A stretch of DNA of 30,896 nucleotides, from IMG/VR virus record IMGVR_UViG_3300032116_000908, positions 1 to 30,896 of that record; one strand, 5' to 3'. A program made the position numbers and the translations under genes. How positions within the stretch are numbered: position 1 is the stretch's first letter; each line of letters begins with the position of its first letter. Positions 5,221 through 23,735 of this stretch are shown piece by piece. Under the pieces are notes generated by a model. That model saw nothing but the letters and a program-made list of their open reading frames with translations. It had not been told where the DNA came from and searched no databases. This stretch comes from a virus.

Positions 5221-8200
5221 TTATAATCCACGTAAAAACCTTGCAGCATTTGTGTCAGTGATCTGTAGTGCTTCGCCGTTGCTAGGTGTTCCGTTACCCG
5301 GAGCATACCAAGTTACACCTCTACGCTGTAATATCACCACCTCAACACCTGCACCTGGAGCAGGCAAATCGTTGGCTGTAAGGAACTGTATTGCTAGTGG
5401 ATTGTAATCGGTTACTTGGTAGTAGTTGCTGGCCAAACTGGTGCCAGCAACACCTGTTCCTGACCCTGCCCCTGTAGCTGTAAATACCACGCCCGGCAAT
5501 GGATAAACATCGCTTGGCAGGCCAATAGCATGCCAGTTGGTGCTGCCAACACTAGCAATAGTGTAAGTTTGTCCTATCACAAACTGCCCAGCATAGTAAC
5601 CTACTCTAGCACGGTTGCCGCCGACATATACTTCAATACTGTTGACTTCAAAAGAACTGTCACTTAAATCAAATTCAATTGTAGGAGCGTAAAATATTGT
5701 GGTAGATCCATCACCCGTACTGGTATCGCTTACAATATAGTTTTGAAACTCTTGAGGTTGTCTGTTACCAAGACCCATGTCATACACTTCTGCATTGACT
5801 GAATGACTGGTAGCGGCTGTGCCAGCAGTACCTCGTTGTAACCCAGTGATTGAATTTGTAGACAAATTTCTTTCGCGATATAGTATGCGTTCACCATCGA
5901 TTGTAACTACACCAAAAATACCATCAGTCAAGTTGGGCTCACTAAGGGCTGCGACATTTGCGACGTAGATAATGTCTGCTACAGCTGACACTGCCTGAGC
6001 TACTGTAGTTGTTGTTGAGGCAGTGATACGGAACGTAGTTTGCACTCCACGCATGTCCTGGAACAATCTAAATGCCATAGCACCTGGCACAACACTCTCA
6101 GTAAATTCAGTTACTGCCAGCACTTGTGCCGAGCCAATAATACCACTGCCCAGTATCAAATATTGTCCTTGCACTGCATAATCCACGCCTGGATACAATC
6201 TATTGCCATCCAATGTAACCCATAATCTGTTGGCCAATATTCCTTCACGACCTAGATTAAAATCATTAGTTGGAATAGCCACGCCTATGCTGAAGTCAAA
6301 GCTGCCTGATGTGTCATTGGCTGCATCTGGAAAACTGTATCCAGTGCTGTCATATGGCTCAATCACTGTGAGGCCAGTAACCACCGGGCCTACAAATACC
6401 AAAGTTAACGGATCTTGTTGTGATGTATCATTCCAACTGGTAATTGCAATTTGATCGCCTAAATTAAGCAACGGAGTTATTAACAATCTGTTGGGCGATC
6501 CTATCACAACTGTGTATTGTGCAATGGTGCTAACTGATATTAAAATCTGTGCGCCATCAGCAGGTGGAGTAAAAAATACCACTTGTCGGCCTGGAGTATT
6601 ACTACCATCATAATTGGTCACATAATAATTACCTACAATAGCACCATAATTTTGTACTTGTAGGACATTGTCTACCCAAACTTGAATATCAGTGTAAGCA
6701 TTGATAGCAGATTGTGGATAGCCACCACCGCGCTGTGGCAATCCAAAACTGCTGCTGGTTCCGTCACCAGTCCATTCAATACCCTCAGGTGGTTGTAGGC
6801 GTTTGCCATTAACAGTGACCACTAGGTTGGCCACATTGGTTCCTTGCATGCTGTTGTCAAGATTGATACTGTTGGTCAATCTATCAGACTCAGTAGCGGT
6901 ACGATACTGTGTTACTGCTGTGCTCCAGCTGTATTGTGGATCTTCAACGCCCATGACAGTGATAGAAATTCCATCGCCTGGACCATATGGTGCTTCGGTA
7001 CCAATAAATCGAGTCCAATCAATCTCAGTGGTTCCAACAGAGATAGACGGATTTGATGTGCAGACCCATCTTGTGGCAGCATTGGTTGATCCTGATGTAA
7101 CAAGGGTGATTGCGCTAGGAATATCTAGAGAATCAACAAAATCTGTTGCTCTGGTCAATATCCAACCAATTGTGCTATTACCAACTCTAGTAACAGTATA
7201 GATACCATTAAACGTTGCACTTTGCGTGGTGTCATTGGTGTATATGCCAGTTTCATCCTTGACAAGTATGCGATCTCCTACCAATGGAATAACGCCGTCA
7301 ATTGTTAACGCAGTGTAATCATCAAATACGTTGTAATTTGTTAGTGTTGCCCCAACACCGTTTGTGCCATTGTTGTACACATAGCCATAAGTTCCAAATA
7401 ACGATGTTGTGGTTGCATATTTTACATTGGCCATTGGATATGGAAACCTAACTGTTGATTGCACAGTTGGAACAAATTCTATCCAATACAATGGATCATC
7501 TAATAAAATTCCCGGCGGCACTGATTGCAACGCTCGATAATACAATTGATTATCTTCAACAACAGTTTGTGCTGCATAAGAATTTTCGTAAGTCCAAGGC
7601 ACACTGTTAGCATAAGATGTCCAGGTGGCACCTGACACATTTGTACCATTTACAAACAATACCAGTTCATAAATTTCATTGGCATTTACAGGAATTACTA
7701 CAGAATTATTGACTTCTGTTCCGTTGTAATTTCCGCGGTACAACTGATTACCACCACCCATTTCGTAAGCAGTAACACTGATCACATCACCATTTGCAAT
7801 ACCACCGCCAGGAACGGCTGTTATAGTTTGGGCCTCCCAATCCACAACATAGTCTACGTCTGGTGTGAGATCACTATTTGTATTTTCATTAGAAACTTCA
7901 ATGTTTACCGGATTTTGCACCAATGTGCCCCAGTATAAGGCATTGCCGTCATAAACATAATTGAATGTGCCTATAGCAAAGCCATGTCCGTCACCTGTCC
8001 AGTCTGCACCTGGACGAGTATACACACGGAAATCTAGTGTGTCGTATTCAGATCCGTTGACCAATTCTTCTGGAGCATGTCCTTCGTATGGTCCAATAAA
8101 TTCGCCACCATCTACATTGATATCAGTTGGACGTAGTCCCAAAAACATATCAGTAAAGCTGCTGGCATAGGTAGCATCTATTGGTTCTGGCACGTCTGCA

Positions 8201-11200
8201 ATCATGGTGCCGGTGGCAGAAGTCAGGCTAAATGTTAACCCATCTGGTGCTAAGGCAACTGTAAAATGTGTTGCATCAACAATGGCATTTACATAATAAA
8301 CAGTACCAGCCACGATGCCACCAAACACCGTGCCGTAGAATCTGATTGGATCACCAAGCGACAATCTTGCTGTTTGAACACATGTGATTTCGTTGGTAGT
8401 TGCATTGGTAGCAGTACACACCAAGGTAGGACTTGCCGGAGCACTGCCCAAGAAATAGTCTCCCCAAACTTGCACACCTGGATAGCTGGTGCCATCTACT
8501 AGCAATTGCAAATCTAATCCAAATTCGTTTACGCCCGGAACATAAAATCCCATGGTACGATTGACACCACTGAGTGTGGCTGCATCTACCAGTGTCCAAT
8601 CTTCAAGATTAAAGACTGGGCCAATCACCGCACTACTGCCGTCTGCACTGTCAGCTTGCCATACACGATCATCATACCGAACCAGTGTGCCATTTTCGTA
8701 TGTGCCATCTGAACTCCAGGTTAATACAGATGTTTGATATTGATAACGGTCGTATTTGAGAACTGTGCGGAAACTGCGCACAAGTCCGTTGTCCATCTGA
8801 GGGTATGCAGCAACGCCTGTGCCATTGCCACCATCAAACGCCACAGTTGGAGTTGAGCGGTAGCCTGAACCGCCATTGATCAATGTTATAGATACGACAT
8901 TGCCTGATGAGTTTAGCACTGCTGTGGCTTCTGCTCCAGACCCAGTGTCACCTTCAGCCGGTACAATCAACACTGTAGGCGCAATGGTATAGCCTGTGCC
9001 TTGATTGGTAACTGTAATTGAATCTACATGTAGCAAATAGTTGTCAAACCATTGACTGTAAGGCCACTCTGGCCACAGAGTGCTATTAGGAGCAGTGTCA
9101 CTGAGTGTGTTAAATGCCTGAGCTGTAGCATGTTCATAAGGTAACAAAATTGGGCTTACATACTGTGGTATGGTCAAATTTGTGTCATAGTATGCTGGCA
9201 AATCAAAGTCAGTCAAACTGCCTTGGAAACTATCAATGCCATCATATGTTAGATTGAATTCACGAACTTGTACATGATAGGGTTTGACTTCTTGAATGTA
9301 CTCACTCACAAAGTCTTGATTGTCACGAATGTAATTTTGATATGGCACCAGATCTCTAACTTTGTGTTGAACATCAATCAAACTGGTTTTAATCAACCAT
9401 TCTGGTGCTAGTAACTCGCTTAAAATAAAGTTAAACATCAGAGTAAGTGACTGATTTCTTTCAATTTTCAATTCGTCAACAAACAATTCTTCATTGATAG
9501 CTTGAATAATTTTACGTGTTTCAATCACTGGTTCTTGATCAAAATATTGTGCATCAAATACTTCAACGTCAAATCCAAATCTGCCTAGCGCATAATCATA
9601 AATTTCAGCAGAAATTTCGATGGTGCCATCTTCAAGGCCTACTCGATCCCATCCTGTATCAGTACGTAGATAGATTTCAAACTTGCCTTGTGCATTAGCA
9701 GTGACTTTGACACTTGATCCAATGGCCACACTTAATGTTTCCAATGTAGCATAGTTTGGTACTTCGGCCACAATAATTGAACTAGAATTATATCCTGGCT
9801 GATACCAGTTAACGTAACTCCAGTATTGTGGCGTGTTATAATTTTGCACACGACTTAACACCAATTCTCTCACTGTTGGATCATTTGTAGCTTGTACTTC
9901 ATTAATGGTCCATAATCCACGATTCAAACTATTGGTAACCACAAGATATTTGTAACCCAATGGCACAGCATATATGTCTTGGAATCCTAGTATTTCTAAA
10001 TTAGCCACTCTCAAATTCCACTCGCCGCTGGTTGCACTAGGTTCAGGTTCTGCACTGTTTAATAATGCAAAACTTCTAATTTCTGTTATAGGATACAATG
10101 CAAATACATCATTGGCACGTTGAATATAATTTTTTAACGCTAAAAATCGATCCACAAACATACTCTGGCGTGGTCGGAATTGAACCCCATATTGTTGAGC
10201 GTAGTTAAGATTTGGATCTGGAACTTTATTGCCAGTTGTGTCTACTCCACAAAAACTGTCTTGTAGTTTGCGATACAAATTATCACTTAAGAAAGCATCA
10301 TCTTGCCCTTGTGCAATTAATTCGTATTCAGTGTGTACATTAGCCTCTGTAAGAACTTGATCAAACTCCACACTGATAATAGTGTCTGCTGCCAAAATGT
10401 ATTCAATTGCATTGTAGATTGCAATGGTACTAGAGTTAATTGGTGCAATATAACTAATGCCACTGGCTTTTGGTTCTTGAATATAAGATGCCACTGTGGC
10501 CACGCTAAGTGTCTTGCCTGCCCGTGATGCAGTTTCAGTTATGCCACGCACCCAGAAATAATATTCAGTAACAAATGTTCCAGACTGATTTAATCGAGTG
10601 CTTACTACATAACTAATGATGCTGTATGGTGTGCCAACTCCGGCGTAATTTGCAGGTGGTACTGTGCTAGAAATCCATTGATATACATCCACTGTGCTGC
10701 CGGGGAATACTTGTCCCCAACGACGGCTGGCATAAGTTGGATTGTCCTGATTTGGATTAATAAATCTTACTGTGCTGATGTCCCACCAAACTTCTCCAAC
10801 ATGTGTAGCCGCCCAAGTGTCACCGCGATTGTTTACAGGACCAACATTGTAAGCAGCAGGGTCAATTGCACTGATAAAATCTATATTTTCTTGAGCGGCC
10901 CCTAATACTTTTCCTTGCAGTGGATCAAAGAAATCAAAGAACTGACTCTTGGCTGAAGAAATTCTGTCATACATGTACACACTAGTCAACAGTCTTATAT
11001 CAACAACTGGTTGTTGAATAGCAATTGGCTCCCAAGCTAAACGTTGCGTGGGATTTTCAAATATATAAGCAGCACCGTATTCGCTGAATGTGCTATCTTC
11101 AAAGTCTTCGCCGGGCGCTGTGGCTACCAAAACACCAGAATTGTAACTTACTGCATAACCATATTGATCCAGATAATTTACTCCATTAGTTTCAACTTGC

Positions 11201-14200
11201 TGTCCAAATATAAACTTACCCGGATTGGCTACGCTGAGGCTATTGCTAGGCAAATAGTCATATGTATAAACTGCACCTGCCTGTACCAATGAACGAGTAA
11301 CATAAGAACCATTGACCAAGACCATAACCACTGAGCTAAAGAATATGGTAGAGTTACCATCAAACGTTGTTCCTGGTTTTTCTGTTGTGGTATTATAATC
11401 AAACACCATAACTGAATATAGTGTGCCCTTTGGTGATCCAACCACAAGATTAAGTGCAGTGTCATTTACAGCCACTGAGTAACCAAATTGACCAAACTCT
11501 ACTGGTCGTGGGCTTGCAATAGTTTGTGTGTATTCAAAAGTTACAAATCCAAGTGCAGAAAACACTGAGCCAACTGAACCCGGTGCCACTTGTAATTTGT
11601 TGCCGTCTGGTGCAGCAGCAGTGTTGGTCACAAAAATAGTCAGGTAGCCTGTTGAGGAAACTACTGCGGTAGCATTAGGAGCACCCGAATTGGTGCCTGC
11701 TTCTCCACCATTTATTGCAGCAGCAAGGCCTGCAATATTATTGTTTGGACTAGCTGGTACTGCAATGTCAACATTGTTTACTCGTAATGTTTGCCCAGCA
11801 GTCAGACTAGGATTGGCAATAGTAGAAGTAATTGTACCATAACTTCTGGCTTGGTTTACACTGCGCTCAACCACACCACCTTTCCAAACAATACTAGAAT
11901 CTTGCGGCGCACCCACATACAAACTACAGTTGTATGGACACAAATCCAAACTTTGGCCGTAGTTTGTGAATTCGGCTACTGTGTTCTCTGTGATCAATTG
12001 CTGTTGCACAAACTGATTGATTTCAATTTCAATTACGTCGCCTACAAACAAATCTTTGTTGATGGTGATGTTATTGCCTGAAACTGAGAATGTGTTATCA
12101 GCGCCAACAATACTGTCAGTTTGATTGGTTAAAAATACATTATTAACTAGAACACTAATTGGTGCTGCCACAGTTCCTAACACAGTATACGTGTTTGAAC
12201 TATCGTCCTGACGAATGAACTTTTGTACATTTCTGTCAATCACATACACTGAACCTGCTTCAGTCAATGTGTTAACTGTGGCGTTAGGACAGCCAATTAT
12301 AACTTGACGTCCATCTGTAGAACACTGAACGCTTGCACCAAATCTTGCACCAGCAGCAACTGCCACTGTTGGTGTAATGGTGCCAGCCAGTTGATAATAA
12401 AACTGCGATGTCACTATAATATCATTACTTGGGGCACTGGCAAATGTCAGTGTGGTGCCAGAGTAGGTGTAATCAATGTTAGGACGTTGTAATACACTAT
12501 CTACACTGACTGAGAATGAATAAATGTTGTTTGCTGTGGCTGTAAACAACCATGGTGACAATGAATATGTAGTACCACTTGGACTAAATGTTTTGACATA
12601 TTTTCTTGAAATTGTAATAACATCACCAGCAGCAGGCATTGCAGTAAATGTCACAGTGGTAAAACCAGCGTCTACAGTGTAATCTGTTGTGAGCGTCAAT
12701 ACTGCATTGTTTTTAAGCACAGCAATTTGATTGGCATTGTTTATTTGTATAGTATCGCTGATGTCAGCAGTATTGCTAGTGCCGTTGGCAATGTATTGTA
12801 AAACTTGATCTTGCCATTGCACTTGTCCGTATGCATACACTGTGTTCAGTCCAGGTGCACCAACGTACAACCAGCGTTCGTCAAGACTCATAGCCACACT
12901 ATAACCAAATTCACCAGCACCTGGGGTGGTGGTTGGTGTTGTTCCAGGTAATGTCAACAACTGTGGTTGAGACCAAGGACTGGTGTTGGCTGCCCCAGCT
13001 GTGGGGTCACGCCATAATACTACAGCGTATCCGTTGTTGACAGGTGATCCTGCAGGTGCTGGTCCCAAGCTGGCGCTTGCTCCGCCAACAGCAAATGTTT
13101 GATTGCCAGCATCTACAGCATTGCCATACCCGCGCAGGCCTGTTGTGCTTAATGTAAGAACAGTGTCTTGTCCGCCAATGGGACTGATTGGCACATACTG
13201 GTCGCCGGCATTTCTTACATACAAATAGATACCGCCCTTGGCAGTACCCAATCCAAACCCATAACGCGGACTACCAACAAACAATGCTGCTCGATTTGTG
13301 GCTTGTGCTACAGATGCTCCGTATTGTTCTGTGGCATCAAGCAACACTGGCGCTAACACTGCTCGGTCAGTAAAAGGATTTTGTTTTTCTAATACTTCCC
13401 ATAATCCGTCACCGTTATCATCAACCCAAACTTTTGCGCCGGGTAAAAATTGTTGTGCGTAAGGCAAATCTATCACGTTGCTGGCCTGGTCTACACGCAT
13501 GGTTTCTAGGGTAAACCCAATGCCTGTGCCGTCAACCACAGTGCGATCACCTGCAAGATCCAATGCAATGTTCACAGTGGTCAAATTGGGAACACTTAAT
13601 ACGGTGTAAACACCATTGACTTCTGTATCAAAAAATCTTATGATCAATCGATTGCCAGTTATCAATCCATGTTGTTTGCTGAATATAACTCTGCTGGTTC
13701 CATTAAGATTGTCACAAACGTGTTGTATAGTTCCTGGCACAGCTTCTGCACGATAAATGTTCCAGTCATAGTTGTTTACTTTGGCAACCCAGATGCTGGT
13801 TCCAACTATAATAGAATTGATGTTGGCATTGAGATTTGCAGGATCATCTAAATCAAAAACTGTGATATCAACGTCATCAATATTAACATATCCTGCACTA
13901 GGCAAAGATATATCTGTTGGCAATGTGGTTGTGGTTGGTAAAAGTGCAGGAGTGGTCAACGGGAAACTACTTTTCCATACATCGCTAAGGAAAATTTGTT
14001 GATCAGCAGTGCTTGTTTCGTTTGGCACCACAACCTGTACCAAGCTAGGATTGCTTGATAACAATGCACGATTCAGTCTCAAATCAAAGAAACTGCGATT
14101 GGCGTTTGCACCATATACCCCACGTTGTATTGCCCAGTTTTCAAAAATTTTGTATTCGGCAACTTCTTTGTTGAACTTAGCTTGCCCAAACAAGTCAACA

Positions 14201-17200
14201 CTATTTTTAGTTCCTTTGGTTCCAAGGAATTCTCTATAAATGTTAAGCTGACTAACATCATCAAGATTTAGTGCAGCCATATACTGTCTAGGTCTAAATC
14301 CTATCAAGCCATAACTTAACAAATCATTGTCACTGACTAAATTTGCCGAGTTGATGTCATAACTGTTGCTGAGTTGGTCAGCTTTGTTTGCAAGATTGGC
14401 CAATAATCCTTGTTCAATAACTGTGTAATCGCTTTGATTCCAGTCATTGTAATTGAACTTGGTGCTGGGTTGTACAATTGTGGCAGCACTCCAGTATGCA
14501 CCTTTGTATGTTACTATTTCACCTTTGGCATAAGTTTTTAAACCAGTCCATGCAGGAATGTTGTTTTGATTTAATATAAATCCCTGCGCATCAACACTGC
14601 CGTTCCATTCTGTAGAAGTAGTGCCAGCAATATACAATCTGCTTTGTCTAGCGCCTGTTATAGGTTCAAAAATTAAGTCGCCAAACAAACTGGCGTTATC
14701 CAACACAATCATACTTTCGAAGCTGGTATAACGCATGTCAATAAAACTCAAACTTTGATTGTTCAAAGGTTGGATAGTAAAGTTGTTGTCAACTCGCACA
14801 ATATTGAGATCACGTGTGGGGAAATCTTTACGATTCTGGTCTAATATTACATGTTCCGCAGTTTGTGATGTTATGTTGTCTACTACTGCTTGTTCCTTGA
14901 ACACAGACAGTCCTATAGCCAACGGATTCAAATTGATTAAGCTGCCATTGCCCCAGCCTTGTTGACTCCAGTATATGAACTCGTACACCATTTGTGACCA
15001 GGTCATCAAGTAACCATTGGTCTGATTGGTAAATTCAAAGCCTTGTGATTCTAAAAACTTTCCATAACTCAACAAGAAATTGGCTACAGCACTTTCAGTT
15101 GTGAATACAAACCCATAGGGAATTTGAGTGACAGTGTCTGTGTAATTGGCAGGTACTTGTATAGTTTTACTGGCCACACTGTATGTTTCAAATTGTCCAA
15201 CTGGAATACTGGTGAATGTGTTAAAATATGGTCTTGCAGTGCTGTAGCCAAATACTGCGTAGCCACCATCCACAACTTGAATCACCACAGAACTGTAAAT
15301 TAATCTGTCAAATGGTTGATTTTTGTATACCAACAGTTGATAGCTTTCTGGAGGAATCTGCAACGAGGCGTTGGTTGATCTAGGACTAGATTTTTCAGTG
15401 TAAATTTTCAAGTACTGTTTGTCTGAGAATGAAGCCATTCTGTAACACAAACGTACATCTAAATTTTGCAAATCTGTTTCTAATGCCACAGTGCTGTCAG
15501 TACCTGTGAGGCGATTGTAATCCACAATCCAGTTGATGTAACTGGCTTTGCTGGTACCGTCACCATACACTTGCACGCCGTTGGCGTCTAATCTGTAACG
15601 ACCATTATAAAGATACTGATCAAATTCTGTGCTATACTTGTACAAGTCTCTGTCAGCAAACAATGCAAAGAATTTTGCTGGACGAGTAAGCGCCAGCAAC
15701 CGCATGGCTGCAAATGGGTAATCGCTTGAATTCCACCACGAAGCTTCTACCGGACCGCCATCACCGGGTGCCCAGCTTTTCTGCCACGTTTGTGGATTGT
15801 ATCTACCTACAACTGATTCCAATGGCGCTAACAGATTGCCTGCACTGTCAGTTGGTAGCACAGATAGCAAGCCAGGTCTTGCATAAGCTGGTAGTGTGTA
15901 TGCGCCAACCGGATCTCTCACAAGCCCTAGTTCCAAATCATCCCACAAGTTCATGTTGTCAGATGTATAAGGTGCCGGGCCGTATGTTATTTCCCACCAG
16001 TCGGGTTGAACTGAAAACCCAATCATCTCCCAAGGAGTTAGTTCTGGTTGTTGGGTATCGTAAAAATAACGATAGATACCACGCCAGGCACCCAACAAAT
16101 TTTCATTGTTAAGTTTGTTAGTTGAAGAACTATAATTGTAGGTAAATGGATTACCAGCATTGTAATTTTGCGTGGTGTAATCCAACTTGTTCCAGCCTAC
16201 ATAAGTCAAGAAACTAGTTTCTAATATGGTATTGATCTCAGCATAGCTATAACCAGTATCTCTAAACTGTCCTGGCAACACATCCACAACATCCAGTGGC
16301 ACAGGATTGTTATCTAACTTGATATTGTTATAAATTCTAGTTTCAAATTCTAACAACACTTCGTCACGTATATCACCAAAGATAGGTGTCTGACTGCCAT
16401 CATGTCCTAGTATAACCAGTTGTTCACCTGCGCTGGTCTTGACTGTCAAAATTTCTGGTCGCCATGCAGGATACAATCCCATTTTGCTTGGAGTATTAGG
16501 CACATAGGTGCCATAGGTAGCACTGTATTCTTGAATGGTAATTGTATCACCAATGGCCAGTGTAATCAAAATCTCAATTCGTGGACCATCTGTGGCAACT
16601 GTGTATTCTAAATCTCTAGTTAAGATTTGGTCATTTACATACACATTCATGCCAAGGTAGTTGGCTGATGTGTAGTTGTAAACTTGTACAGTGTCAAACA
16701 CCTGCCTGGTAATATAGCTCACAGTGTAAGTTGTTGTGGTGAATACTGCGGTAGCAGGCAGCATGTCACTCCAATAGAATGGATTATTTTCTGTTCGTCC
16801 TAGTGTGATTTCAGCTATCACAGTATCAAGTACTTGTGATGTAGTTTCGTATTGAATGGTCTGTCTGGTCACTGCTTCTAGCAGTTGATTTTTGTACTTT
16901 TGATATTCTCTGCTGTTGTATTCTATTGCACCAAAAATATTGTACTGCTGAGATCTCATAAAGTATCCAGCTAGGGTCAATGGAGAACTTTGTTGTAAAA
17001 TCAGTTGACCGTAAGGAATAACATTACCAAGGTCTCTAGTGTTATTTGCACCATTAATTGATCCTGAGAATGTAGTTAAATTTTGACAAATGCTGTCATA
17101 GTGAGTGCGCAATGTACCTAATGTAAAACTTGGGCTGTTGGCATTCAATGGATTGTTATTGAGATTTAACGGAACTTGATAAAAAGCCACTTGGCTGATT

Positions 17201-20200
17201 TGGTCACTAAGCACTTCAACTTCAATTACATCTCCCACAACGTGTGCAGTATGTAATGTAATAGTTGTGGTATTGGCAGTAGTGGCCACTGTGTATGTGC
17301 CTGGATCTTGGAAGATAGATCCCACAAACACTGTTACGCTAGGCACAGTTGTCACAATGTTTGACTGAACAGCAACATCCAATTGTAATGGTTGTAAATT
17401 ATAAACAAATTTAAACTGCTGTCTCATTAGTGTAGGCACTACTGCTGTTTGCCAACCAATCAATCGTTCAAACACAGTTCTTGATGCATATTCATAAACA
17501 AATCCTGAACTAATTGGTGCTGTGGTGCTAACATTGTCAATCACATACACAAATGAATCTGAGTATAAATTATTATCAAATACAATGTCTCCTACATTGG
17601 TCAATGAAAGATATTTGAGCACTAGTTGTAGCACTGGATCAGCAGGTCCTGAGCCTGTGGCATAACTAAACAATTTTGTGCCTGTAAATGTTGAACTAGG
17701 ATATGTAGTTCTGTTGGCCAAACTCACTCCGTCAGCATCAAATATGTCAAACAGTGGTGCCTGTTGTACAGCAGTTTTTTGTTGTGCTTCTAACCAATTT
17801 ACACCATCATACCAGTAGGTAACGCCAACTTGCGAACCACTAATGCATGTGGTAGTTTGATCAACAAGTATTTCTCCATCTGATGCTTCTACCAAATTAA
17901 TAATAGGTTGTGTAATCAATGGTGCCACAGTATCTGGTACAATAAAATTTACCACGTAAATTTTGCTTCGTACATTCTGATCTTCGTCAGCAGCAAATAT
18001 CACACGACTGCCATTGACAAATGTGTAATCATTCACTGAATATCCAGTGCTGCCTTCAATGTTACTGAATGCATCAGTTTCAGTAAAATCAATTACGTTC
18101 ACTGGTTGCTTGGCATCTGTGCCCATGTTATACAATCTGATGCCACCACGGAATTGTATAATTGGCCGCTTGCCTTTACGGTCATTGTCTATTACCACAG
18201 GCGTGTCATTGTAAGCACCTGTAGCATTGAGCACATCAATGTGGAACCATCGATTGCTACGACTCCATGCATTTAGATCTGGACTGTCTCGGTTGATTGT
18301 GAGATAATCAACATCGTCAGCAGACGCATACTCTTCAGGAGTGATATAATTTGTTACTGGCAATAGTTCAATTGCTGTGCCTACACCACTAACATAGTAT
18401 TGCGGATTTTGACTGGTAGTTGCAACCATACTACCATTGGCCGAGGTCAACGTCACTGCTGTGCCATCTTTGGTTGTGCTTACTTTAAATTGACTGCTGC
18501 TAAACACTGTTTGAACGTAATAGGTAACACCAGTGTTTACTCCGCCGAATGCTGTGCCATTAAAAATAATTTCCTGACCTACTGCCATGCCTGCTGTGGA
18601 TTCAGTGGTAATGAGATTGATACCTGCTGCGGTGTTTGTGCAAATAAATGCAGCAGACCCAGTGGCGTAGCTGGCAGGTGATACATTACCTAAAAATTGA
18701 ACTTTTAATCCATTGGTAAATGTAACACCATTTGGACTGGTGTAGTTGGTTTTTCCTAACACATCTTCGATGTATATTGTACTGCTATTGTCTTGTTCAA
18801 TTAGACGGATGGTGCCAAAAATTTCTGGGTCGGTGCCATCTTGGTAATACAATGTATCCAACTTGGCTGTAAGCTGAGGCATTTCAACAATATATCCAGT
18901 TTGGTTTTTGTACCACTGTGTGCTGGAATATTCAGTGCCATATCGTATGGTCCATTTTTCTAAATTAGCTATATTTTGAATGCTGCCTAATGATAGATAG
19001 GTAAAGGCACCCACAACAACATAACTTATACGCCATATGCTATAATAATTAGTAGAAGGATCACCCACACTGTTTGCAAATACCAATGTTCGTGTGTTGA
19101 GATCAGTGATGCCATCAATGCCACCATAGGTAGCTATAAATTGATCTAGTCTGGCTCCGTCGATATTATTGAAAAACAAATCAGTAACAAGATCAACCGA
19201 CCCAATGCTAACAAGATTGTAGAAAAAGTCTTGAGCTGTTTTTTGTGGTACGTTAAAATTAAGTGTGCCAAGATCAATACCATTGTTGGTAACACCGTAG
19301 ATGGATCTAGAAGTTACGTTTGGAGTAGTAGGATCTAATCCATTGATTCCGGGTGCTGTCTGAATCCAAAATCCTGGACCGTCACCAGGTTGGGCATCAA
19401 TCACACTGATGGTACCTCTCATGAGACTTTGAGTCTGACAAGAATAATATAGTGTATTAGGTGCGTCTTGGGGTACAGTAAAAGTCACTGTGCCTACTAC
19501 TGATCCATTACGTGTGACACCTGAGTTATACTGATCACCTGTGCCTGTTGTAGGTGCAGTTTTGATCCAGAACGGAAAGTCGCCTTGCACAAACAGGTTA
19601 AAAGTGTATGTGTTACCACGAATTAAAACAATTGGTGCATTGGGTTCGTTGTCAATGTTAAAGCTGGTAACATTAGTGCGTGTTACTTTGTAATTAACAG
19701 TTTCTTTGTTGTTTTGCGATACTTGAAAAGTGTAGTTGCCGCCACGAACTAAATTTATAGTAGGGTTGTTACCAGTTAATCCTGAAAATGTGTAAACTCC
19801 ATCAGCTCTGTCTACAACAAAATTTTGGCTCAACGCCACACCCGGTGATTGCACAGTAACTACATCAGGGCCATCTGGCACCCAGTAATACTGACTAAAG
19901 TTTACAAACGTGTCAAAATCCATAAACGGATCAAGACTATAATAATCACTAGTATACAGTCGACTGGGTTGTGTTGATGGACTACCTTGATATACCAGTG
20001 TATCAGTTATGCCTGGATACGTAATAGCATCTATTATTTTGTTATTGTCTGCAGGATCAACACTAATCACACCTGGCTCAAGTTGATAGTCAGCGCGAGT
20101 TTTGTCGGGCTCAATCACATACTTGTCGTTGGGATTTACACCTGGGCCAACTGTGCGGCCAATATAACCTTGAGTCTTTTTAAACTTTGGCTCTTGAATC

Positions 20201-20289
20201 AACTGATCCAAAGTAGCAGCCAAAAATTGCTTGTTGGCGTCCGTCTGAAAAATCTCAGGAAGAAAATCTACACTGCGTACTCGTGCCAT
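5221..20289 (-). CDS. Giant modular virion structural protein (5022 aa), probably baseplate/tail-tip associated
   Basis: One uninterrupted frame of 5022 residues (roughly 550 kDa at 110 Da each). Its ATG overlaps the gp6-like stop (TAATG), with GGAG 7 nt upstream. The N-terminus (MARVRSVDFLPEIFQ) and aromatic DFDTFVNFSQYYWVPDG (124-140) resemble, from memory, unnamed virion proteins of marine T4-like phages. Modules read by eye: cupredoxin-like tandem (about 205-370); a 78-residue module at 548-625, repeated at 3956-4033; Trp/Tyr-rich core in the middle; seven FG-GAP-like propeller blades (about 2323-3089) with inserts; then a Trp-rich stretch with GEVWWDISTVRF and ASRRWGQVFPGS; and fibre-like 'NG...DY...GD.I' units, frequent toward the C-terminus. 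No signal peptide or membrane helix is evident. Position right after gp6 corresponds to gp7 in T4 (1032 aa), but homology to gp7 is not shown. Structural role is near certain; exact place in the virion is inference. Confidence 0.88.
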   Translation of the reverse strand: MARVRSVDFLPEIFQTDANKQFLAATLDQLIQEPKFKKTQGYIGRTVGPGVNPNDKYVIEPDKTRADYQLEPGVISVDPADNNKIIDAITYPGITDTLVYQGSPSTQPSRLYTSDYYSLDPFMDFDTFVNFSQYYWVPDGPDVVTVQSPGVALSQNFVVDRADGVYTFSGLTGNNPTINLVRGGNYTFQVSQNNKETVNYKVTRTNVTSFNIDNEPNAPIVLIRGNTYTFNLFVQGDFPFWIKTAPTTGTGDQYNSGVTRNGSVVGTVTFTVPQDAPNTLYYSCQTQSLMRGTISVIDAQPGDGPGFWIQTAPGINGLDPTTPNVTSRSIYGVTNNGIDLGTLNFNVPQKTAQDFFYNLVSIGSVDLVTDLFFNNIDGARLDQFIATYGGIDGITDLNTRTLVFANSVGDPSTNYYSIWRISYVVVGAFTYLSLGSIQNIANLEKWTIRYGTEYSSTQWYKNQTGYIVEMPQLTAKLDTLYYQDGTDPEIFGTIRLIEQDNSSTIYIEDVLGKTNYTSPNGVTFTNGLKVQFLGNVSPASYATGSAAFICTNTAAGINLITTESTAGMAVGQEIIFNGTAFGGVNTGVTYYVQTVFSSSQFKVSTTKDGTAVTLTSANGSMVATTSQNPQYYVSGVGTAIELLPVTNYITPEEYASADDVDYLTINRDSPDLNAWSRSNRWFHIDVLNATGAYNDTPVVIDNDRKGKRPIIQFRGGIRLYNMGTDAKQPVNVIDFTETDAFSNIEGSTGYSVNDYTFVNGSRVIFAADEDQNVRSKIYVVNFIVPDTVAPLITQPIINLVEASDGEILVDQTTTCISGSQVGVTYWYDGVNWLEAQQKTAVQQAPLFDIFDADGVSLANRTTYPSSTFTGTKLFSYATGSGPADPVLQLVLKYLSLTNVGDIVFDNNLYSDSFVYVIDNVSTTAPISSGFVYEYASRTVFERLIGWQTAVVPTLMRQQFKFVYNLQPLQLDVAVQSNIVTTVPSVTVFVGSIFQDPGTYTVATTANTTTITLHTAHVVGDVIEVEVLSDQISQVAFYQVPLNLNNNPLNANSPSFTLGTLRTHYDSICQNLTTFSGSINGANNTRDLGNVIPYGQLILQQSSPLTLAGYFMRSQQYNIFGAIEYNSREYQKYKNQLLEAVTRQTIQYETTSQVLDTVIAEITLGRTENNPFYWSDMLPATAVFTTTTYTVSYITRQVFDTVQVYNYTSANYLGMNVYVNDQILTRDLEYTVATDGPRIEILITLAIGDTITIQEYSATYGTYVPNTPSKMGLYPAWRPEILTVKTSAGEQLVILGHDGSQTPIFGDIRDEVLLEFETRIYNNIKLDNNPVPLDVVDVLPGQFRDTGYSYAEINTILETSFLTYVGWNKLDYTTQNYNAGNPFTYNYSSSTNKLNNENLLGAWRGIYRYFYDTQQPELTPWEMIGFSVQPDWWEITYGPAPYTSDNMNLWDDLELGLVRDPVGAYTLPAYARPGLLSVLPTDSAGNLLAPLESVVGRYNPQTWQKSWAPGDGGPVEASWWNSSDYPFAAMRLLALTRPAKFFALFADRDLYKYSTEFDQYLYNGRYRLDANGVQVYGDGTSKASYINWIVDYNRLTGTDSTVALETDLQNLDVRLCYRMASFSDKQYLKIYTEKSSPRSTNASLQIPPESYQLLVYKNQPFDRLIYSSVVIQVVDGGYAVFGYSTARPYFNTFTSIPVGQFETYSVASKTIQVPANYTDTVTQIPYGFVFTTESAVANFLLSYGKFLESQGFEFTNQTNGYLMTWSQMVYEFIYWSQQGWGNGSLINLNPLAIGLSVFKEQAVVDNITSQTAEHVILDQNRKDFPTRDLNIVRVDNNFTIQPLNNQSLSFIDMRYTSFESMIVLDNASLFGDLIFEPITGARQSRLYIAGTTSTEWNGSVDAQGFILNQNNIPAWTGLKTYAKGEIVTYKGAYWSAATIVQPSTKFNYNDWNQSDYTVIEQGLLANLANKADQLSNSYDINSANLVSDNDLLSYGLIGFRPRQYMAALNLDDVSQLNIYREFLGTKGTKNSVDLFGQAKFNKEVAEYKIFENWAIQRGVYGANANRSFFDLRLNRALLSSNPSLVQVVVPNETSTADQQIFLSDVWKSSFPLTTPALLPTTTTLPTDISLPSAGYVNIDDVDITVFDLDDPANLNANINSIIVGTSIWVAKVNNYDWNIYRAEAVPGTIQHVCDNLNGTSRVIFSKQHGLITGNRLIIRFFDTEVNGVYTVLSVPNLTTVNIALDLAGDRTVVDGTGIGFTLETMRVDQASNVIDLPYAQQFLPGAKVWVDDNGDGLWEVLEKQNPFTDRAVLAPVLLDATEQYGASVAQATNRAALFVGSPRYGFGLGTAKGGIYLYVRNAGDQYVPISPIGGQDTVLTLSTTGLRGYGNAVDAGNQTFAVGGASASLGPAPAGSPVNNGYAVVLWRDPTAGAANTSPWSQPQLLTLPGTTPTTTPGAGEFGYSVAMSLDERWLYVGAPGLNTVYAYGQVQWQDQVLQYIANGTSNTADISDTIQINNANQIAVLKNNAVLTLTTDYTVDAGFTTVTFTAMPAAGDVITISRKYVKTFSPSGTTYSLSPWLFTATANNIYSFSVSVDSVLQRPNIDYTYSGTTLTFASAPSNDIIVTSQFYYQLAGTITPTVAVAAGARFGASVQCSTDGRQVIIGCPNATVNTLTEAGSVYVIDRNVQKFIRQDDSSNTYTVLGTVAAPISVLVNNVFLTNQTDSIVGADNTFSVSGNNITINKDLFVGDVIEIEINQFVQQQLITENTVAEFTNYGQSLDLCPYNCSLYVGAPQDSSIVWKGGVVERSVNQARSYGTITSTIANPSLTAGQTLRVNNVDIAVPASPNNNIAGLAAAINGGEAGTNSGAPNATAVVSSTGYLTIFVTNTAAAPDGNKLQVAPGSVGSVFSALGFVTFEYTQTIASPRPVEFGQFGYSVAVNDTALNLVVGSPKGTLYSVMVFDYNTTTEKPGTTFDGNSTIFFSSVVMVLVNGSYVTRSLVQAGAVYTYDYLPSNSLSVANPGKFIFGQQVETNGVNYLDQYGYAVSYNSGVLVATAPGEDFEDSTFSEYGAAYIFENPTQRLAWEPIAIQQPVVDIRLLTSVYMYDRISSAKSQFFDFFDPLQGKVLGAAQENIDFISAIDPAAYNVGPVNNRGDTWAATHVGEVWWDISTVRFINPNQDNPTYASRRWGQVFPGSTVDVYQWISSTVPPANYAGVGTPYSIISYVVSTRLNQSGTFVTEYYFWVRGITETASRAGKTLSVATVASYIQEPKASGISYIAPINSSTIAIYNAIEYILAADTIISVEFDQVLTEANVHTEYELIAQGQDDAFLSDNLYRKLQDSFCGVDTTGNKVPDPNLNYAQQYGVQFRPRQSMFVDRFLALKNYIQRANDVFALYPITEIRSFALLNSAEPEPSATSGEWNLRVANLEILGFQDIYAVPLGYKYLVVTNSLNRGLWTINEVQATNDPTVRELVLSRVQNYNTPQYWSYVNWYQPGYNSSSIIVAEVPNYATLETLSVAIGSSVKVTANAQGKFEIYLRTDTGWDRVGLEDGTIEISAEIYDYALGRFGFDVEVFDAQYFDQEPVIETRKIIQAINEELFVDELKIERNQSLTLMFNFILSELLAPEWLIKTSLIDVQHKVRDLVPYQNYIRDNQDFVSEYIQEVKPYHVQVREFNLTYDGIDSFQGSLTDFDLPAYYDTNLTIPQYVSPILLPYEHATAQAFNTLSDTAPNSTLWPEWPYSQWFDNYLLHVDSITVTNQGTGYTIAPTVLIVPAEGDTGSGAEATAVLNSSGNVVSITLINGGSGYRSTPTVAFDGGNGTGVAAYPQMDNGLVRSFRTVLKYDRYQYQTSVLTWSSDGTYENGTLVRYDDRVWQADSADGSSAVIGPVFNLEDWTLVDAATLSGVNRTMGFYVPGVNEFGLDLQLLVDGTSYPGVQVWGDYFLGSAPASPTLVCTATNATTNEITCVQTARLSLGDPIRFYGTVFGGIVAGTVYYVNAIVDATHFTVALAPDGLTFSLTSATGTMIADVPEPIDATYASSFTDMFLGLRPTDINVDGGEFIGPYEGHAPEELVNGSEYDTLDFRVYTRPGADWTGDGHGFAIGTFNYVYDGNALYWGTLVQNPVNIEVSNENTNSDLTPDVDYVVDWEAQTITAVPGGGIANGDVISVTAYEMGGGNQLYRGNYNGTEVNNSVVIPVNANEIYELVLFVNGTNVSGATWTSYANSVPWTYENSYAAQTVVEDNQLYYRALQSVPPGILLDDPLYWIEFVPTVQSTVRFPYPMANVKYATTTSLFGTYGYVYNNGTNGVGATLTNYNVFDDYTALTIDGVIPLVGDRILVKDETGIYTNDTTQSATFNGIYTVTRVGNSTIGWILTRATDFVDSLDIPSAITLVTSGSTNAATRWVCTSNPSISVGTTEIDWTRFIGTEAPYGPGDGISITVMGVEDPQYSWSTAVTQYRTATESDRLTNSINLDNSMQGTNVANLVVTVNGKRLQPPEGIEWTGDGTSSSFGLPQRGGGYPQSAINAYTDIQVWVDNVLQVQNYGAIVGNYYVTNYDGSNTPGRQVVFFTPPADGAQILISVSTIAQYTVVIGSPNRLLITPLLNLGDQIAITSWNDTSQQDPLTLVFVGPVVTGLTVIEPYDSTGYSFPDAANDTSGSFDFSIGVAIPTNDFNLGREGILANRLWVTLDGNRLYPGVDYAVQGQYLILGSGIIGSAQVLAVTEFTESVVPGAMAFRLFQDMRGVQTTFRITASTTTTVAQAVSAVADIIYVANVAALSEPNLTDGIFGVVTIDGERILYRERNLSTNSITGLQRGTAGTAATSHSVNAEVYDMGLGNRQPQEFQNYIVSDTSTGDGSTTIFYAPTIEFDLSDSSFEVNSIEVYVGGNRARVGYYAGQFVIGQTYTIASVGSTNWHAIGLPSDVYPLPGVVFTATGAGSGTGVAGTSLASNYYQVTDYNPLAIQFLTANDLPAPGAGVEVVILQRRGVTWYAPGNGTPSNGEALQITDTNAARFLRGL
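8190..8424 (-). repeat. Second copy of a 78-residue module in the giant protein
   Basis: Residues 3956-4033 align without gaps to residues 548-625 (DNA 18415-18648), about 30 of 78 identical by hand count, sharing GTxFGG, TYYV/VYYV, FxV, DG and LTSAxGxM. The pattern recalls small beta-modules of tail fibres. Confidence 0.75.
11022..13323 (-). other. Seven-blade FG-GAP (integrin-like) beta-propeller region within the giant protein
   Basis: Seven segments fit the FG-GAP blade pattern (FGxSVa...lxVGaP....GxVYvy): YGASVAQ...LFVGSPRYG; YGNAVDA...FAVGGAS; FGYSVAM...LYVGAPG; FGASVQC...VIIGCPN; YGQSLDL...LYVGAPQ; FGYSVAV...LVVGSPK; YGYAVSY...LVATAPG. The number equals that of integrin alpha propellers. 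Calcium-loop DxDGDG motifs are not clear. Inserts of 40-150 residues separate several blades. Domain call by eye. Confidence 0.68.
18415..18648 (-). repeat. First copy of a 78-residue module in the giant protein
   Basis: Residues 548-625, with GTAFGGVNTGVTYYV at its centre and LTSANGSM at its end; the partner is at 8190-8424. The two copies differ throughout in DNA, so this is an old duplication or repeated acquisition of a common fibre module. Confidence 0.75.
19180..19677 (-). other. Cupredoxin-like tandem domains in the giant protein N-terminal region
   Basis: Residues 205-298 follow a cupredoxin-like pattern that I know from phage and bacterial proteins: RGNTYTFNL, FPFWIKT, GVTRNG, GTVTFTVP, then LYYSCxxxxxMRGTISV. 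A second, weaker copy at about 306-358 repeats FWIQTAP, GVTNNG, GTLNFNVPQ. In the first copy Cys284 and Met290 remain, but Gln287 replaces the usual His of CxxHxxM, and Phe stands where the 'HPF' His would be. Confidence 0.55.
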
Positions 20290-23200
20290 TAAATTACTCC
20301 GCTACCAGGTGCAGTACGCAAATTAGTACTGGTCAATGCATCAATCACAACAATATTGTCAATGGTAGCGCCGTTAACAAATATTTCACTGGGTTCTGCT
20401 CTTACTTCGTACATGTCGCCAAAGTATTTTTGTGTGTCTAGTGGTACCAATACCACTGAACTGATTATGGTTCCAAGATATCTGTGCAGGTACGCCGCCA
20501 GTTCTGAAAAATAGAATGTATCGCCAAATCCCCATTTGTCAATGCTAAAATATTCATTCATAGCTGCCAACACAGAACTTTGTATTTCGCTAGTGCTGGC
20601 TGTGGAATTTTGAGCACGAATAACTTTGATTGTGGCTTGCAATGTTGTGGCTGCTTTAGGTCCAAACAATGGTTTAAACACTACAGAATTCAAAATAATG
20701 TTGTCACTGATCATCTTGTATTCATTAAGTCCTTGATATTCTGTACTAAGCTCATCAATGGTTGGCACGTCAGGTTCTGTAACTGTTCCGGTGGTGTCTT
20801 TAATCCAATTTTGATAGGCAGTGTAGTATGACTGTGTTACAACATACAAGTCAATAATATTAGTGGTGCCAGGATCAATTCTATTGGTCAATGGTGAGTT
20901 GTGACGATATTGGAAGTACAATGCTTGTCGTCCTGTTCTAGCAATCCAATCGCCTTCTGCTGCTTGCGTGATAACTCTCACTCCGGCAGTATTAACAGTC
21001 AATGTAAAAAATAATTCATCGGTGTAGGCATAGAAAACTTGCCCAGGTGAGTATTGAAACTTTACCAGTTCAATATTATCATACGTAGGATAGTCTGAAT
21101 TGACCACTCCAGGTTCTACCAGCAAATATCGTTGCAAATTGTCAAAGTCCACAGTTTGTTGCAAGAACACTAGTTTGAGGTTGGGATTAACTGTTGGTGC
21201 AACAATTTCATTGAAGAAATCTGGATTGTCTGGCACGCCATCAGAGTCAGAATCTCTATAGCTGATCAACACCTGAAAGTCGTCAACATAGCCATCAGAC
21301 TCCACAGGCTGTCCAGTGATTGTGGTATAGATATCTCCAGGCAGCGGTGATGAGCTGTCTGGTTTGGTGTTTACTGCCAGCACGTTAATAAAATCTTTAA
21401 TGGTGGTGCCTGTGCGGCTGTCGTAAATCTTTTGATTTCCGTAAAAAAAGAATCTTGTTTGCAGTACTGATCCAAAGTAATAAGCAAGTCCTCGAAATGT
21501 GATTGTGTATTTGTTGTCCACCGCCACAAACTGTACCATCCAACTTGCATCTAAATTGTTTCCTGATGTGTTACCTGCATACGCTTGACTCCAAGTAGCA
21601 TCAGCATCTAGATTGGTACTGGTAATAACATACCAAGTCCCGGCAGTGCCTGTAATGGCACCATTGTTATCATAGCCAAGACCAAAATTTCTGTACAACA
21701 AAATTTGTTGTGTCATTTGTTCTCTAATAGACGGAGTCAAATCTGTAAGGAATACAGGAATAATACTGTCCACTACAGCACCTGTAGGCACAAAGTTATT
21801 GAGTGCAATAGGGCCTTGGCCATTGGTTAAATTACCAATGCCGTTATTACTGCCGTCACCTACTATGGCAAGTGGACTGGCCCAAATTTCCAAATGGTCT
21901 TCGGGTCTAGTTGGCAGTCCTTGTTTCAATCTATTGTTTGCATCAAAGTAATACGGTTGTCCATTAATAACTGGAGGTATGAATTTAATTAAACTTTTTT
22001 GCACCACATACTTGAATGCAGTACTGCTAGAAGTTCCAACCATAACTGGTTCACCCAATGCATTTTGAAAATACCCTGTGGTTTCGTTAGCCAGTGTTGT
22101 GCTTTGATTCCAAGTGCTTAGAGCAGTAACACCAGTGTTTACAGGTATTCTTGGAAAGTTTGCATAGTAAAACTGTTTGAATGTGGTATCGATGATAGCA
22201 GGCTGTACTTGGTTGGCAATGAGGTCAGCAATCTCATTGCGATTGATCCAACTAAACAAAATACTAGGAAGAACATTGTATTCCCACATAGCCCCGTCAC
22301 TGGAAAATGTGTTGGTAGACGAATACTTGCCTGTGTTGTCCACAAGATCAAGATACCGACTAGTGCCAATACTAGCACGGTTTACTGCTTTTGATTTGAT
22401 AATAGAATTGTAAAGAGTAAACGGAAACAAGTTATAGTCTTCACCGTTGACCATGCGATTCTGTGTGTAGTATCTTGCTGGCGCACGTTGTTTGATAGCG
22501 TCAATGCTTTCACGACTTTGTGCATTGCTTACTGGTTGTGTGATACCACAAGTAAAAGTAATAGTTTGTAGGTTACCATTACGATCAATATAACTGATAG
22601 GCAACACCACGTTCTGCATTTCAGCAGGATTGATAATGTATTGAAGGCCATTGCTTGCACGAACATATGCACGGAAAATGCCCACTGGTATTTCTGAGAA
22701 CACGCCATCACCAAACACCATGGTAATCTGATCATTGGTTCTGCTGGTCACAGAAAATATTGGTCTTAGTGTTGCAGTTTGTTCCGCAGCAGCTGAGTAA
22801 ATGTTTTCAGTAAATGTCCACTCTCGACTGATGCTGCCCACATTATCTAATTGGAATAGCCAACGATCTTCGTTGTTCACACCATCAATGTTGATGTTTA
22901 CTGTGCGATTGGCAATGCGTTCAGCCAAGTTAAAATCTTGATTTTGCAATGTACCTTGTTTGAAAAAGAAGAAAAATCCATTGTTAGCACTTTGGTATCC
23001 TAACTTATCATTACGATACAATATATTGAATGTGGCATTGGGTTTTGGACTTGGTTCATAAATGTAGTCTCTGCCAGCTGTGGACGACGTTGTGGCTTCA
23101 AACGGCATGTTAACTCCATCCACTGTGGCAGTATACGGAATTACTGGCAAGAATCCTGGCACTAAGTTAATGCCATATTCATTGGTATCTACACCCAAAA

Positions 23201-23735
23201 TAGTTTGACGATTAGCAGGACGTCCAATTTTTTGACTGCTGACCAAGGATGAGTTAACAATAGCATTCCACTGTTCCAACCAATCAAAGTTTGTAGGATC
23301 GGCCCAATTAACTGTGACATTGGCCAAGTTAACACCGTTGTAATCCACAACATTTTCTGTTGTGGTCACTGAGAATGCTTTGAGCAGGCCCTGGGCGGCT
23401 GTGTTACGTTTGGCTGTATAGCTAACAAGATTGGCCAATCGTGTGACTGAATCTCTGCGTTCTGCTGTGTCTAAGTAATTTTCTCTTGTGTTAAGGTCTG
23501 TGCGGAAGGCAAGTGCCTGGCCCATAAACGCAATAACATCTAATAGCGCAATATATTCAGATGACTCAATGTAGTCGTTGAATGTTTCTGGATAGTACAA
23601 ACGCAGGTAATCGGTGAAACTCTTGCGTAGAGTTTCAAAGTCGTAGCTTTGGAAATCTGCTTCGCGATAGGTTTGATAGATTTGTTTCCAATCTTCTACA
23701 CCAAATATCGCTGTTTGTCTAGTGGTTTTTGCCAT
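20289..23735 (-). CDS. Baseplate wedge protein, gp6 / baseplate J-like
   Basis: At 1148 aa it is much longer than T4 gp6 (660 aa). The N-terminal helical part (about 10-115) has YPETFNDYIESSEYIALLD and RENYLDTAERRDSVTRLA, typical of the gp6/baseplate J group. MVFGDGVFSEIPVG near residue 337 is the FGDG...P.G signature of baseplate J proteins, and QRAPARYYTQNRMVNGEDY near 415-435 matches the conserved segment that follows. The remaining C-terminal half is beta-rich and less familiar. In T4, gp6 dimers hold neighbouring wedges together as the ring of the baseplate. It follows the gp25-like gene, the same adjacency as W and J of P2. It has its own exact late promoter at 23765-23772 and an AAGG ribosome site at 23749-23746. 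The family assignment is strong; the roles of the extra ~490 residues are unknown. Confidence 0.92.
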   Translation of the reverse strand: MAKTTRQTAIFGVEDWKQIYQTYREADFQSYDFETLRKSFTDYLRLYYPETFNDYIESSEYIALLDVIAFMGQALAFRTDLNTRENYLDTAERRDSVTRLANLVSYTAKRNTAAQGLLKAFSVTTTENVVDYNGVNLANVTVNWADPTNFDWLEQWNAIVNSSLVSSQKIGRPANRQTILGVDTNEYGINLVPGFLPVIPYTATVDGVNMPFEATTSSTAGRDYIYEPSPKPNATFNILYRNDKLGYQSANNGFFFFFKQGTLQNQDFNLAERIANRTVNINIDGVNNEDRWLFQLDNVGSISREWTFTENIYSAAAEQTATLRPIFSVTSRTNDQITMVFGDGVFSEIPVGIFRAYVRASNGLQYIINPAEMQNVVLPISYIDRNGNLQTITFTCGITQPVSNAQSRESIDAIKQRAPARYYTQNRMVNGEDYNLFPFTLYNSIIKSKAVNRASIGTSRYLDLVDNTGKYSSTNTFSSDGAMWEYNVLPSILFSWINRNEIADLIANQVQPAIIDTTFKQFYYANFPRIPVNTGVTALSTWNQSTTLANETTGYFQNALGEPVMVGTSSSTAFKYVVQKSLIKFIPPVINGQPYYFDANNRLKQGLPTRPEDHLEIWASPLAIVGDGSNNGIGNLTNGQGPIALNNFVPTGAVVDSIIPVFLTDLTPSIREQMTQQILLYRNFGLGYDNNGAITGTAGTWYVITSTNLDADATWSQAYAGNTSGNNLDASWMVQFVAVDNKYTITFRGLAYYFGSVLQTRFFFYGNQKIYDSRTGTTIKDFINVLAVNTKPDSSSPLPGDIYTTITGQPVESDGYVDDFQVLISYRDSDSDGVPDNPDFFNEIVAPTVNPNLKLVFLQQTVDFDNLQRYLLVEPGVVNSDYPTYDNIELVKFQYSPGQVFYAYTDELFFTLTVNTAGVRVITQAAEGDWIARTGRQALYFQYRHNSPLTNRIDPGTTNIIDLYVVTQSYYTAYQNWIKDTTGTVTEPDVPTIDELSTEYQGLNEYKMISDNIILNSVVFKPLFGPKAATTLQATIKVIRAQNSTASTSEIQSSVLAAMNEYFSIDKWGFGDTFYFSELAAYLHRYLGTIISSVVLVPLDTQKYFGDMYEVRAEPSEIFVNGATIDNIVVIDALTSTNLRTAPGSGVI

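Follow-up and report, generated by a model that had tools for sequence, protein, structure and literature searches.

A predicted FG-GAP propeller of integrin-alpha type in a slot of a baseplate-associated giant protein of uncultured jumbo phages

Results

A predicted seven-bladed propeller in the middle of a giant virion protein

The DNA analyzed here, hereafter the window, comprises the 30,896 bases of an IMG/VR virus record (IMGVR_UViG_3300032116_000908). Its minus strand carries an open reading frame (ORF) for a giant virion protein of 5022 residues, and between two conserved regions of that protein, designated core A and core B, lies a segment with seven FG-GAP-like repeats. An earlier note, made from the sequence letters, had read the interval 11022-13323 as an integrin-type propeller carried by a phage tail protein and had proposed it as a candidate head for host contact. 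Our analysis of the predicted structure gives good support to the view that the segment is a seven-bladed FG-GAP beta-propeller of integrin-alpha type. The giant, its cores and the propeller, whose blades are defined by the motif together with the strands of the model, are laid out as follows.

5221..20289, minus strand: giant virion protein, 5022 residues, relative of phrog_10938
14023..16506, minus strand: conserved core A, residues 1262-2089, shared with relatives
11017..13380, minus strand: seven-bladed FG-GAP propeller, refined limits, residues 2304-3091 (Pfam, AlphaFold2 and fold match)
13156..13323, minus strand: blade 1, residues 2323-2378
12952..13128, minus strand: blade 2, residues 2388-2446
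12376..12909, minus strand: blade 3 with a 140-residue insertion, residues 2461-2638
12400..12819, minus strand: insertion of blade 3 between strands 3 and 4, residues 2491-2630 (Pfam and model)
11992..12342, minus strand: blade 4 with a 59-residue beta insertion (2693-2751), residues 2650-2766
11518..11961, minus strand: blade 5 with a 105-residue insertion (2813-2917), residues 2777-2924
11197..11487, minus strand: blade 6 with a 52-residue loop between strands 2 and 3 (2953-3004), residues 2935-3031
11017..11163, minus strand: blade 7, residues 3043-3091
10234..11025, minus strand: conserved core B, residues 3089-3352, directly after the propeller

Among its 5022 residues the giant has seven copies of the motif [FY]Gx[AS][VL], at residues 2323, 2388, 2461, 2650, 2777, 2935 and 3043, and all seven occurrences fall within 11022-13323. 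The same motif was found on average 0.99 times, and at most 6 times, in 1000 residue shuffles of the giant. A longer motif that also requires a [VIL][GA]x[PS] strand occurred five times, compared with a shuffle mean of 0.046 and a maximum of 2. Pfam FG-GAP_2 (PF14312) matched within residues 2264-3130 with E=1.2e-9 and 38.7 bits, against a curated cut-off of 23. The seven FG-GAP-like segments claimed earlier are thus recovered by both the motif count and the family match, and the GxVYxY-like strands claimed for several of them can be seen among the third strands, which read, in blade order, GGIYLYVR, GYAVVLWR, TVYAYGQV, GSVYVIDR, GVVERSVN, GAVYTYDYL and GAAYIFE. The profile search that the earlier note had proposed was successful in part: PF14312 scored above its cut-off, but the older FG-GAP model, PF01839, gave no match in the Pfam search of the window record.

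The repeats are shared by relatives of the giant. A slightly looser motif occurred at least seven times in the slot between the cores in 19 of the first 21 relatives, and the remaining two, L013 (6 occurrences) and L016 (4), fall below seven because contig ends cut them. FG-GAP_2 matched at E<=0.01 in 55 of 63 slot representatives (28/32 and 27/31), a set that takes in four cultured phages and the empty-site locus L086 described below. When a sequence profile of the propeller alignment was compared with the PDB, integrin alpha-IIb ranked first; this match is weak (E=0.0026), but it was made on sequence. The DxDxDG-type calcium loop, searched for as D.[DN].[DN]G, had no match in window residues 2304-3091; one match each was found in 9 of the 98 aligned rows, the window row not among them. 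The window propeller is therefore to be regarded as having an integrin-type fold, and not as an integrin.

The predicted fold superposes end to end on integrin alpha heads

For residues 2090-3118, AlphaFold2 was run on a 98-row alignment made up of the window plus 97 of the 99 clustered relatives (all but L001 and L094). The resulting model had a predicted local distance difference test (pLDDT) score of 87.3 and a predicted template modeling (pTM) score of 0.86. Each of the seven motifs has strands 1 to 4 in the strand table of the model, which gives seven four-stranded blades. The top PDB matches of the model in Foldseek were integrin alpha heads (E down to 1.8e-10), and VIA aligned it with the integrin alpha-M head at Z 34.7 and a root-mean-square deviation (rmsd) of 2.8 over 371 aligned residues that span window residues 2304-3089 (model 215-1000). 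Among the 50 matches listed by VIA, 48 are integrins, with 15-18% identity to the propeller; the remaining two come from CIAO1, a WD40 protein (Z 32.3 and 32.0), and therefore shape alone does not single out integrins. The blade count noted earlier as that of integrin alpha heads agrees with this seven-bladed model, in which the ring is probably closed, as judged from the end-to-end superposition on closed integrin heads, and in which blade 7 would complete the ring with the N-terminal strand 2307-2312.

Alternatively, the blade motifs might belong to unrelated beta-sandwich domains that form no closed propeller, an outcome that the earlier note had allowed for. It is true that small beta modules are found between the motifs of the blades. 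In the predicted model, however, the beta-sandwich segments are not blades but are inserted into the loops of blades, every one of the seven motifs brings four strands, and the match to the integrin head runs from end to end. Taken with the FG-GAP_2 match, this makes the beta-sandwich explanation highly improbable.

According to the strand table, the insertions of 140, 59 and 105 residues separate strand 3 from strand 4 in blades 3, 4 and 5, respectively, and the strand 3-4 loops would lie on one face because of general propeller topology. By eye, the blade 3 insertion consists of two tandem small beta-sandwich modules, and it has a CBM_X2 match (E=5.6e-5) below the cut-off. The blade 5 insertion (window 11539-11853) resembles by eye the flagellin hook IN motif, as it does in relatives such as L042; Pfam Flagellin_IN matched 4 of the 63 slot representatives and nothing in the window itself. 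The window propeller is like the integrin alpha head in its seven four-stranded blades, its FG-GAP signature and its fold match (Z up to 34.7), but unlike it in having no DxDxDG loop, in carrying beta insertions on strand 3-4 loops and in lying mid-chain in a 5022-residue phage protein.

The propeller occupies a slot that is filled, differently filled or empty in relatives

For comparison of the slot, we took the best 80 of 591 relatives, of which 68 have both cores on one ORF; a fragment, L076, was dropped to leave 67. These 67 are not independent, as L044/L080, L061/L078 and L077/L083 are identical in lengths and scores. The slot of the window, between core A and core B, measures about 1000 residues, and the propeller within it is flanked by the strand segments VWVDxxxxxWxVxxK (before) and VVDxxLLNSVF (after). 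A strict pattern for the first of these found it ahead of the propeller in 23 of 43 relatives, and close variants can be recognized by eye in the remaining 20.

The main blade model was built from the window and the ten first relatives only, with the tested loci excluded. With this model, the slot contained at least one FG-GAP blade match in 65 of the 67 environmental relatives, at least five in 46 and seven in 18, compared with 0 of 142 shuffled or reversed controls. The only environmental slots lacking a match were those of L086 and L094, and none of four cultured slots had one. An earlier blade model, which included one tested locus (L048), matched 66/67 relatives and 1/142 controls; it found no blade in either of the giants of SCTP-2 and CBB. 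Blades are kept in relatives down to about 26% identity.

L086 is an empty site, in which the two flanks are joined through 38 residues. The 1385-residue slot of L094 (3094-7248) shows PQQ_2/BamB-type and EMC1-type propeller matches together with an FG-GAP_2 match just below the cut-off, which suggests a second or different propeller there. The insertion of the propeller into the giant is well supported computationally, and from its sequence the propeller looks like a discrete module with a clean boundary.

Searches beyond the giant gave the following results. PF14312 was present in 9 of 13 whole records searched, namely 7 of 8 IMG/VR records (one below cut-off), Phosso and Atu_ph07, and had no match in the whole records of L086, SCTP-2, PBECO4 and Paride. 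Core A matched 59 of 50,697 phage records. In tblastn searches of the same 50,697 records, neither the window propeller (E up to 1e-3) nor the divergent slot of L053 (E up to 0.01) had a match. A scan of genome contigs with the propeller alignment returned 58 pattern matches but no confirmed relative, and therefore no host or source of the propeller domain was found.

The propeller diverges faster than the cores while its strands are conserved

Compared with core A, the propeller had the lower identity to the window in 68/68 relatives (by a mean of 17.9 points); the same was true against core B in 66/66 (16.5 points) and against the linker in 65/68 (11.1 points). We also determined nonsynonymous (dN) and synonymous (dS) divergence for ten pairs in ten regions. 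In the eight mid-distance pairs, whose slots are 84-90% identical, dN ranged from 0.022 to 0.038 in the strands of the blades and from 0.061 to 0.153 in the loops and inserts, with the strand value well below the loop value in all eight. The corresponding dN ranges were 0.037-0.054 for core A and 0.038-0.067 for core B, 0.048-0.096 for the linker and 0.082-0.135 for the C-terminal region. dS was near saturation in most pairs, and dN exceeded dS in one cell only, the linker compared with the near-identical L003 (0.002 vs 0.00), which is meaningless because there are too few changes. This pattern of divergence fits an exposed, maintained fold, and it is no demonstration of host-driven selection.

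One could envision that the propeller is a spacer or a relic of domain shuffling, an interchangeable beta module that lengthens the giant and has no specific ligand. The wide variation in slot length and filling between phages would agree with this, as would the one relative, L086, that does without a propeller. On the other hand, neither the retention of blades down to such low identity nor a strand dN below loop dN in the eight mid-distance pairs, as expected of a maintained fold, would be anticipated for a mere filler, and we consider this explanation improbable.

The giant lies in a run of baseplate genes

The genes upstream of the giant include four with matches to baseplate families.

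20289..23735, minus strand: gp6-like baseplate wedge gene (phrog_10646, E=3.5e-276)
23792..24166, minus strand: gp25-like baseplate wedge gene (family match)
25812..27326, minus strand: gp5-like baseplate hub gene (phrog_13211, E=8.1e-36)
30168..30470, minus strand: gp53-like baseplate wedge gene (phrog_7145, E=3.2e-23)

The order of the minus-strand run is gp53-like, a 942-residue protein, gp5-like hub, a 546-residue protein, gp25-like, gp6-like and the giant, with one base common to the gp6-like stop codon and the start codon of the giant. The hub region (24175-27326) contains ORFs of 504 and 546 residues; the former is a strong match to baseplate hub families and the latter a weak one (E=0.0074). 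A Pfam IGF2_C hit on the 546-residue ORF, below cut-off, was put down to chance. Within the giant, residues 179-298 (window 19396-19755) match phrog_677, a family of baseplate wedge tail fibre connectors (E=2.8e-15), which may mark a fibre attachment point.

In the profile search, residues 1-3130 of the giant matched phrog_10938 ("virion structural protein") with E=3.2e-217, and by this match and the comparison of cores, the cores are colinear with those of other phrog_10938 giants. We examined six cultured giants of RaK2-like and related jumbo phages, those of PBECO4, CBB, Paride, Atu_ph07, Sinorhizobium phage Phosso and Salicola phage SCTP-2. The giant stands directly after a gp6-like gene in all of these except SCTP-2 (5/6); in SCTP-2 (L024, L194) the gp6-like gene (231 kb) is far from the giant, gene 140 (128-139 kb). 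The cultured giants have both cores in common with the window giant, and in the same order, but FG-GAP blades were found in 0/6, and a Pfam scan of four of them gave no FG-GAP match. The flanking matches, which end at differing window residues, are 118 residues apart in PBECO4, 320 in Paride and 338 in SCTP-2; in Atu_ph07 and Phosso the distance is about 1530 residues. By gene number and sequence, CBB_236 is the CBB homologue of the giant, and mass spectrometry of purified particles in the CBB study detected it through 21 unique peptides, at 7.72% coverage (PMC5259590). The earlier placing of the propeller on a baseplate protein is supported by indirect lines only, namely the baseplate gene region, the colinear giants and the homologue in the virion.

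The earlier note had also taken the giant for a T4-type wedge protein. Its genome place is indeed that of T4 gene 7, directly after a gp6-like gene and downstream of gp53- and gp5-like genes, and in the window a 942-residue, a 546-residue and a gp25-like gene are also part of the run. An hhalign comparison of five gp7 proteins with 22 giants detected no homology (best E=0.43), and Pfam gp7 domains, three of which are seen in T4 gp7 itself, were absent from the pieces of the giant. The hhalign and Pfam results thus give no support to this part of the note. The gp7 structures 5hx2 and 5iv5 were not among the first 50 matches listed in fold searches of the propeller model or of the core A model described below. 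T4 gp7 may itself have a domain resembling a propeller, in which case a propeller at the gp7 place would be less surprising.

Given this gene context, the propeller might instead be a structural platform inside the tail that docks fibres or wedge neighbours, so that its variability would follow its partners and not the host. The proximity of the giant to baseplate genes, the purifying selection throughout and the strong conservation of the strands are all compatible with a platform, and the authors of the CBB study discuss the CBB Kelch propellers as protein-binding domains (PMC5259590). Against it, divergence is faster in the propeller than in either core, and six cultured relatives with the same cores have no FG-GAP blades in the slot, so that a working baseplate does not in general require the propeller. 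We regard a platform as possible but rather unlikely.

Small modules near the propeller

A second AlphaFold2 model, covering core A and the linker, had a pLDDT of 80.6 and a pTM of 0.60 and was weak near model 710-805. Two small modules were recognized by fold match.

14428..14565, minus strand: small CBM5/12-like module, residues 1909-1954
13504..13746, minus strand: small barrel just before the propeller, residues 2182-2262

Residues 1909-1954 matched a part of the baseplate receptor-binding complex of Agrobacterium phage Milano (8fqc_P1; Z 8.2, rmsd 1.3, 45 aligned), as well as phage 7-7-1 tail fibres (Z 7.7) and a chitin-oligosaccharide deacetylase (Z 7.1). For this module Pfam gave no CBM match in the window itself, and a weak local CBM5/12-like match was noticed near giant residues 3852-3916. 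In three of four cultured giants, Pfam CBM_5_12 matched below cut-off near window residues 1690-1725. We rejected these matches as support for the module at 1909-1954 for reason of their position; since they lie at another place, such modules recur in giants without being the same one.

The VIA list for the second model was dominated by the small barrel, and the helical part of that model had no match among those listed, which says nothing on novelty. The barrel matched those of UBA1 and UBA6 (UBA6 Z 10.0) and of the phage endosialidases (NF Z 9.0; phi92 Z 8.8 with 23% identity). The endosialidases of phi92, K1F and NF have the same barrel fold as that found just before the window propeller. 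They pair this barrel with a propeller of the sialidase type, whereas the window propeller is of the FG-GAP type. Although their Z scores are low, the small modules are leads towards a surface-binding arm, as far as the predicted models go.

Discussion

FG-GAP proteins of phages are not in themselves new, since UniProt already contains some from phages and from giant viruses. PF14312 proteins of bacteria and viruses belong to the same repeat family as the window propeller, which scores above the curated cut-off; what sets it apart from them is that it is predicted to form one ring inside a conserved giant beside wedge genes. The propeller matches in BFVD include an uncharacterised protein of an uncultured Caudovirales (E=5.8e-29), one protein named "FG-GAP repeat", the Atu_ph07 "hemagglutinin" and several giant-virus proteins. 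Atu_ph07 gp320 (L186:11019-12200; 393 residues), annotated as a streptococcal hemagglutinin, has FG-GAP_2 repeats, and its gene adjoins a tail sheath gene. Phosso (PV764938.1) encodes two adjacent FG-GAP-rich proteins of 3162 and 3692 residues (L187:1839-11327 and 11401-22479), both annotated as hypothetical, and its 42 PF14312 matches fall in these two and in two proteins of about 400 residues. The two large Phosso proteins, 107 and 108, resemble the window giant in being giant FG-GAP proteins, here in a cultured relative, but they are products of separate genes with many FG-GAP repeats and neither is the protein after gp6.

Beta-propellers in jumbo-phage particles have also been described. 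The CBB study reports the Kelch protein CBB_552 from the particles of that phage, and an RCC1-like protein of GAP32 that was identified by mass spectrometry (PMC5259590). These Kelch/RCC1-type proteins of RaK2-like phages differ from the window giant in being encoded by separate genes and in belonging to other propeller families. The main text of the RaK2 paper mentions no FG-GAP, beta-propeller or wedge (PMC3622015). In the open-licence literature searched, we found no report of FG-GAP with phage baseplate or with jumbo phage, and none, judging by titles and abstracts, of a fixed propeller slot in a baseplate giant. In the records examined, jumbo-phage giants carry no annotation beyond "virion structural protein", "structural protein" or hypothetical. 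Earlier records thus cover phage proteins with FG-GAP repeats and Kelch propellers in the virions of jumbo phages, whereas the fixed slot in a baseplate giant was described in none of the papers searched.

What is the propeller for? Because it fills a slot in which the examined cultured relatives have no propeller, it is a good candidate for host-cell contact, and we lean, with little more than even confidence, towards the reading that it is a ligand-binding, host-contact head on a baseplate-associated giant of uncultured jumbo phages. Host or ligand binding is suggested by the faster divergence of the propeller and by the small neighbouring modules. In such a scheme, the giant would stand out from the baseplate and display the propeller, which, with the beta insertions on its strand 3-4 loops, would act as the ligand-binding head and hold a host surface polymer or protein before or during sheath contraction. 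The slot would then be an exchangeable tip on a conserved arm. More tentatively, and somewhat short of an even chance in our view, the integrin-alpha-type propeller could serve an uncultured group of jumbo phages as a plug-in adhesion head in a fixed slot, its loss or swap, together with the loop-borne beta modules, retuning host contact in the manner of the tail-fibre tips of other phages.

Several points weigh against host contact. Propellers often serve as protein-docking platforms, and for this phage a host ligand and its binding are putative. The fold is a predicted structure, and it is not integrin-specific, as the CIAO1 match (Z 32.3) makes plain. The C-terminal 1312 residues of the giant are nearly as variable as the propeller, which had the lower identity in 46/63 relatives, by a mean of 3.2 points, and positive selection was not seen in the ten pairs and ten regions compared. 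The matches of the small modules, at Z 7-10, are near the warning level of the tool, and the CBM_5_12 matches of cultured giants lend no support to the module at 1909-1954.

The analysis gives one jumbo-phage giant a partial domain map and a candidate for ligand binding, and it defines a slot of which filled, differently filled and empty versions exist in nature. It places a predicted head of integrin type in the surroundings of a phage baseplate, and it makes the question of how such giants may meet the host testable in cultured relatives.

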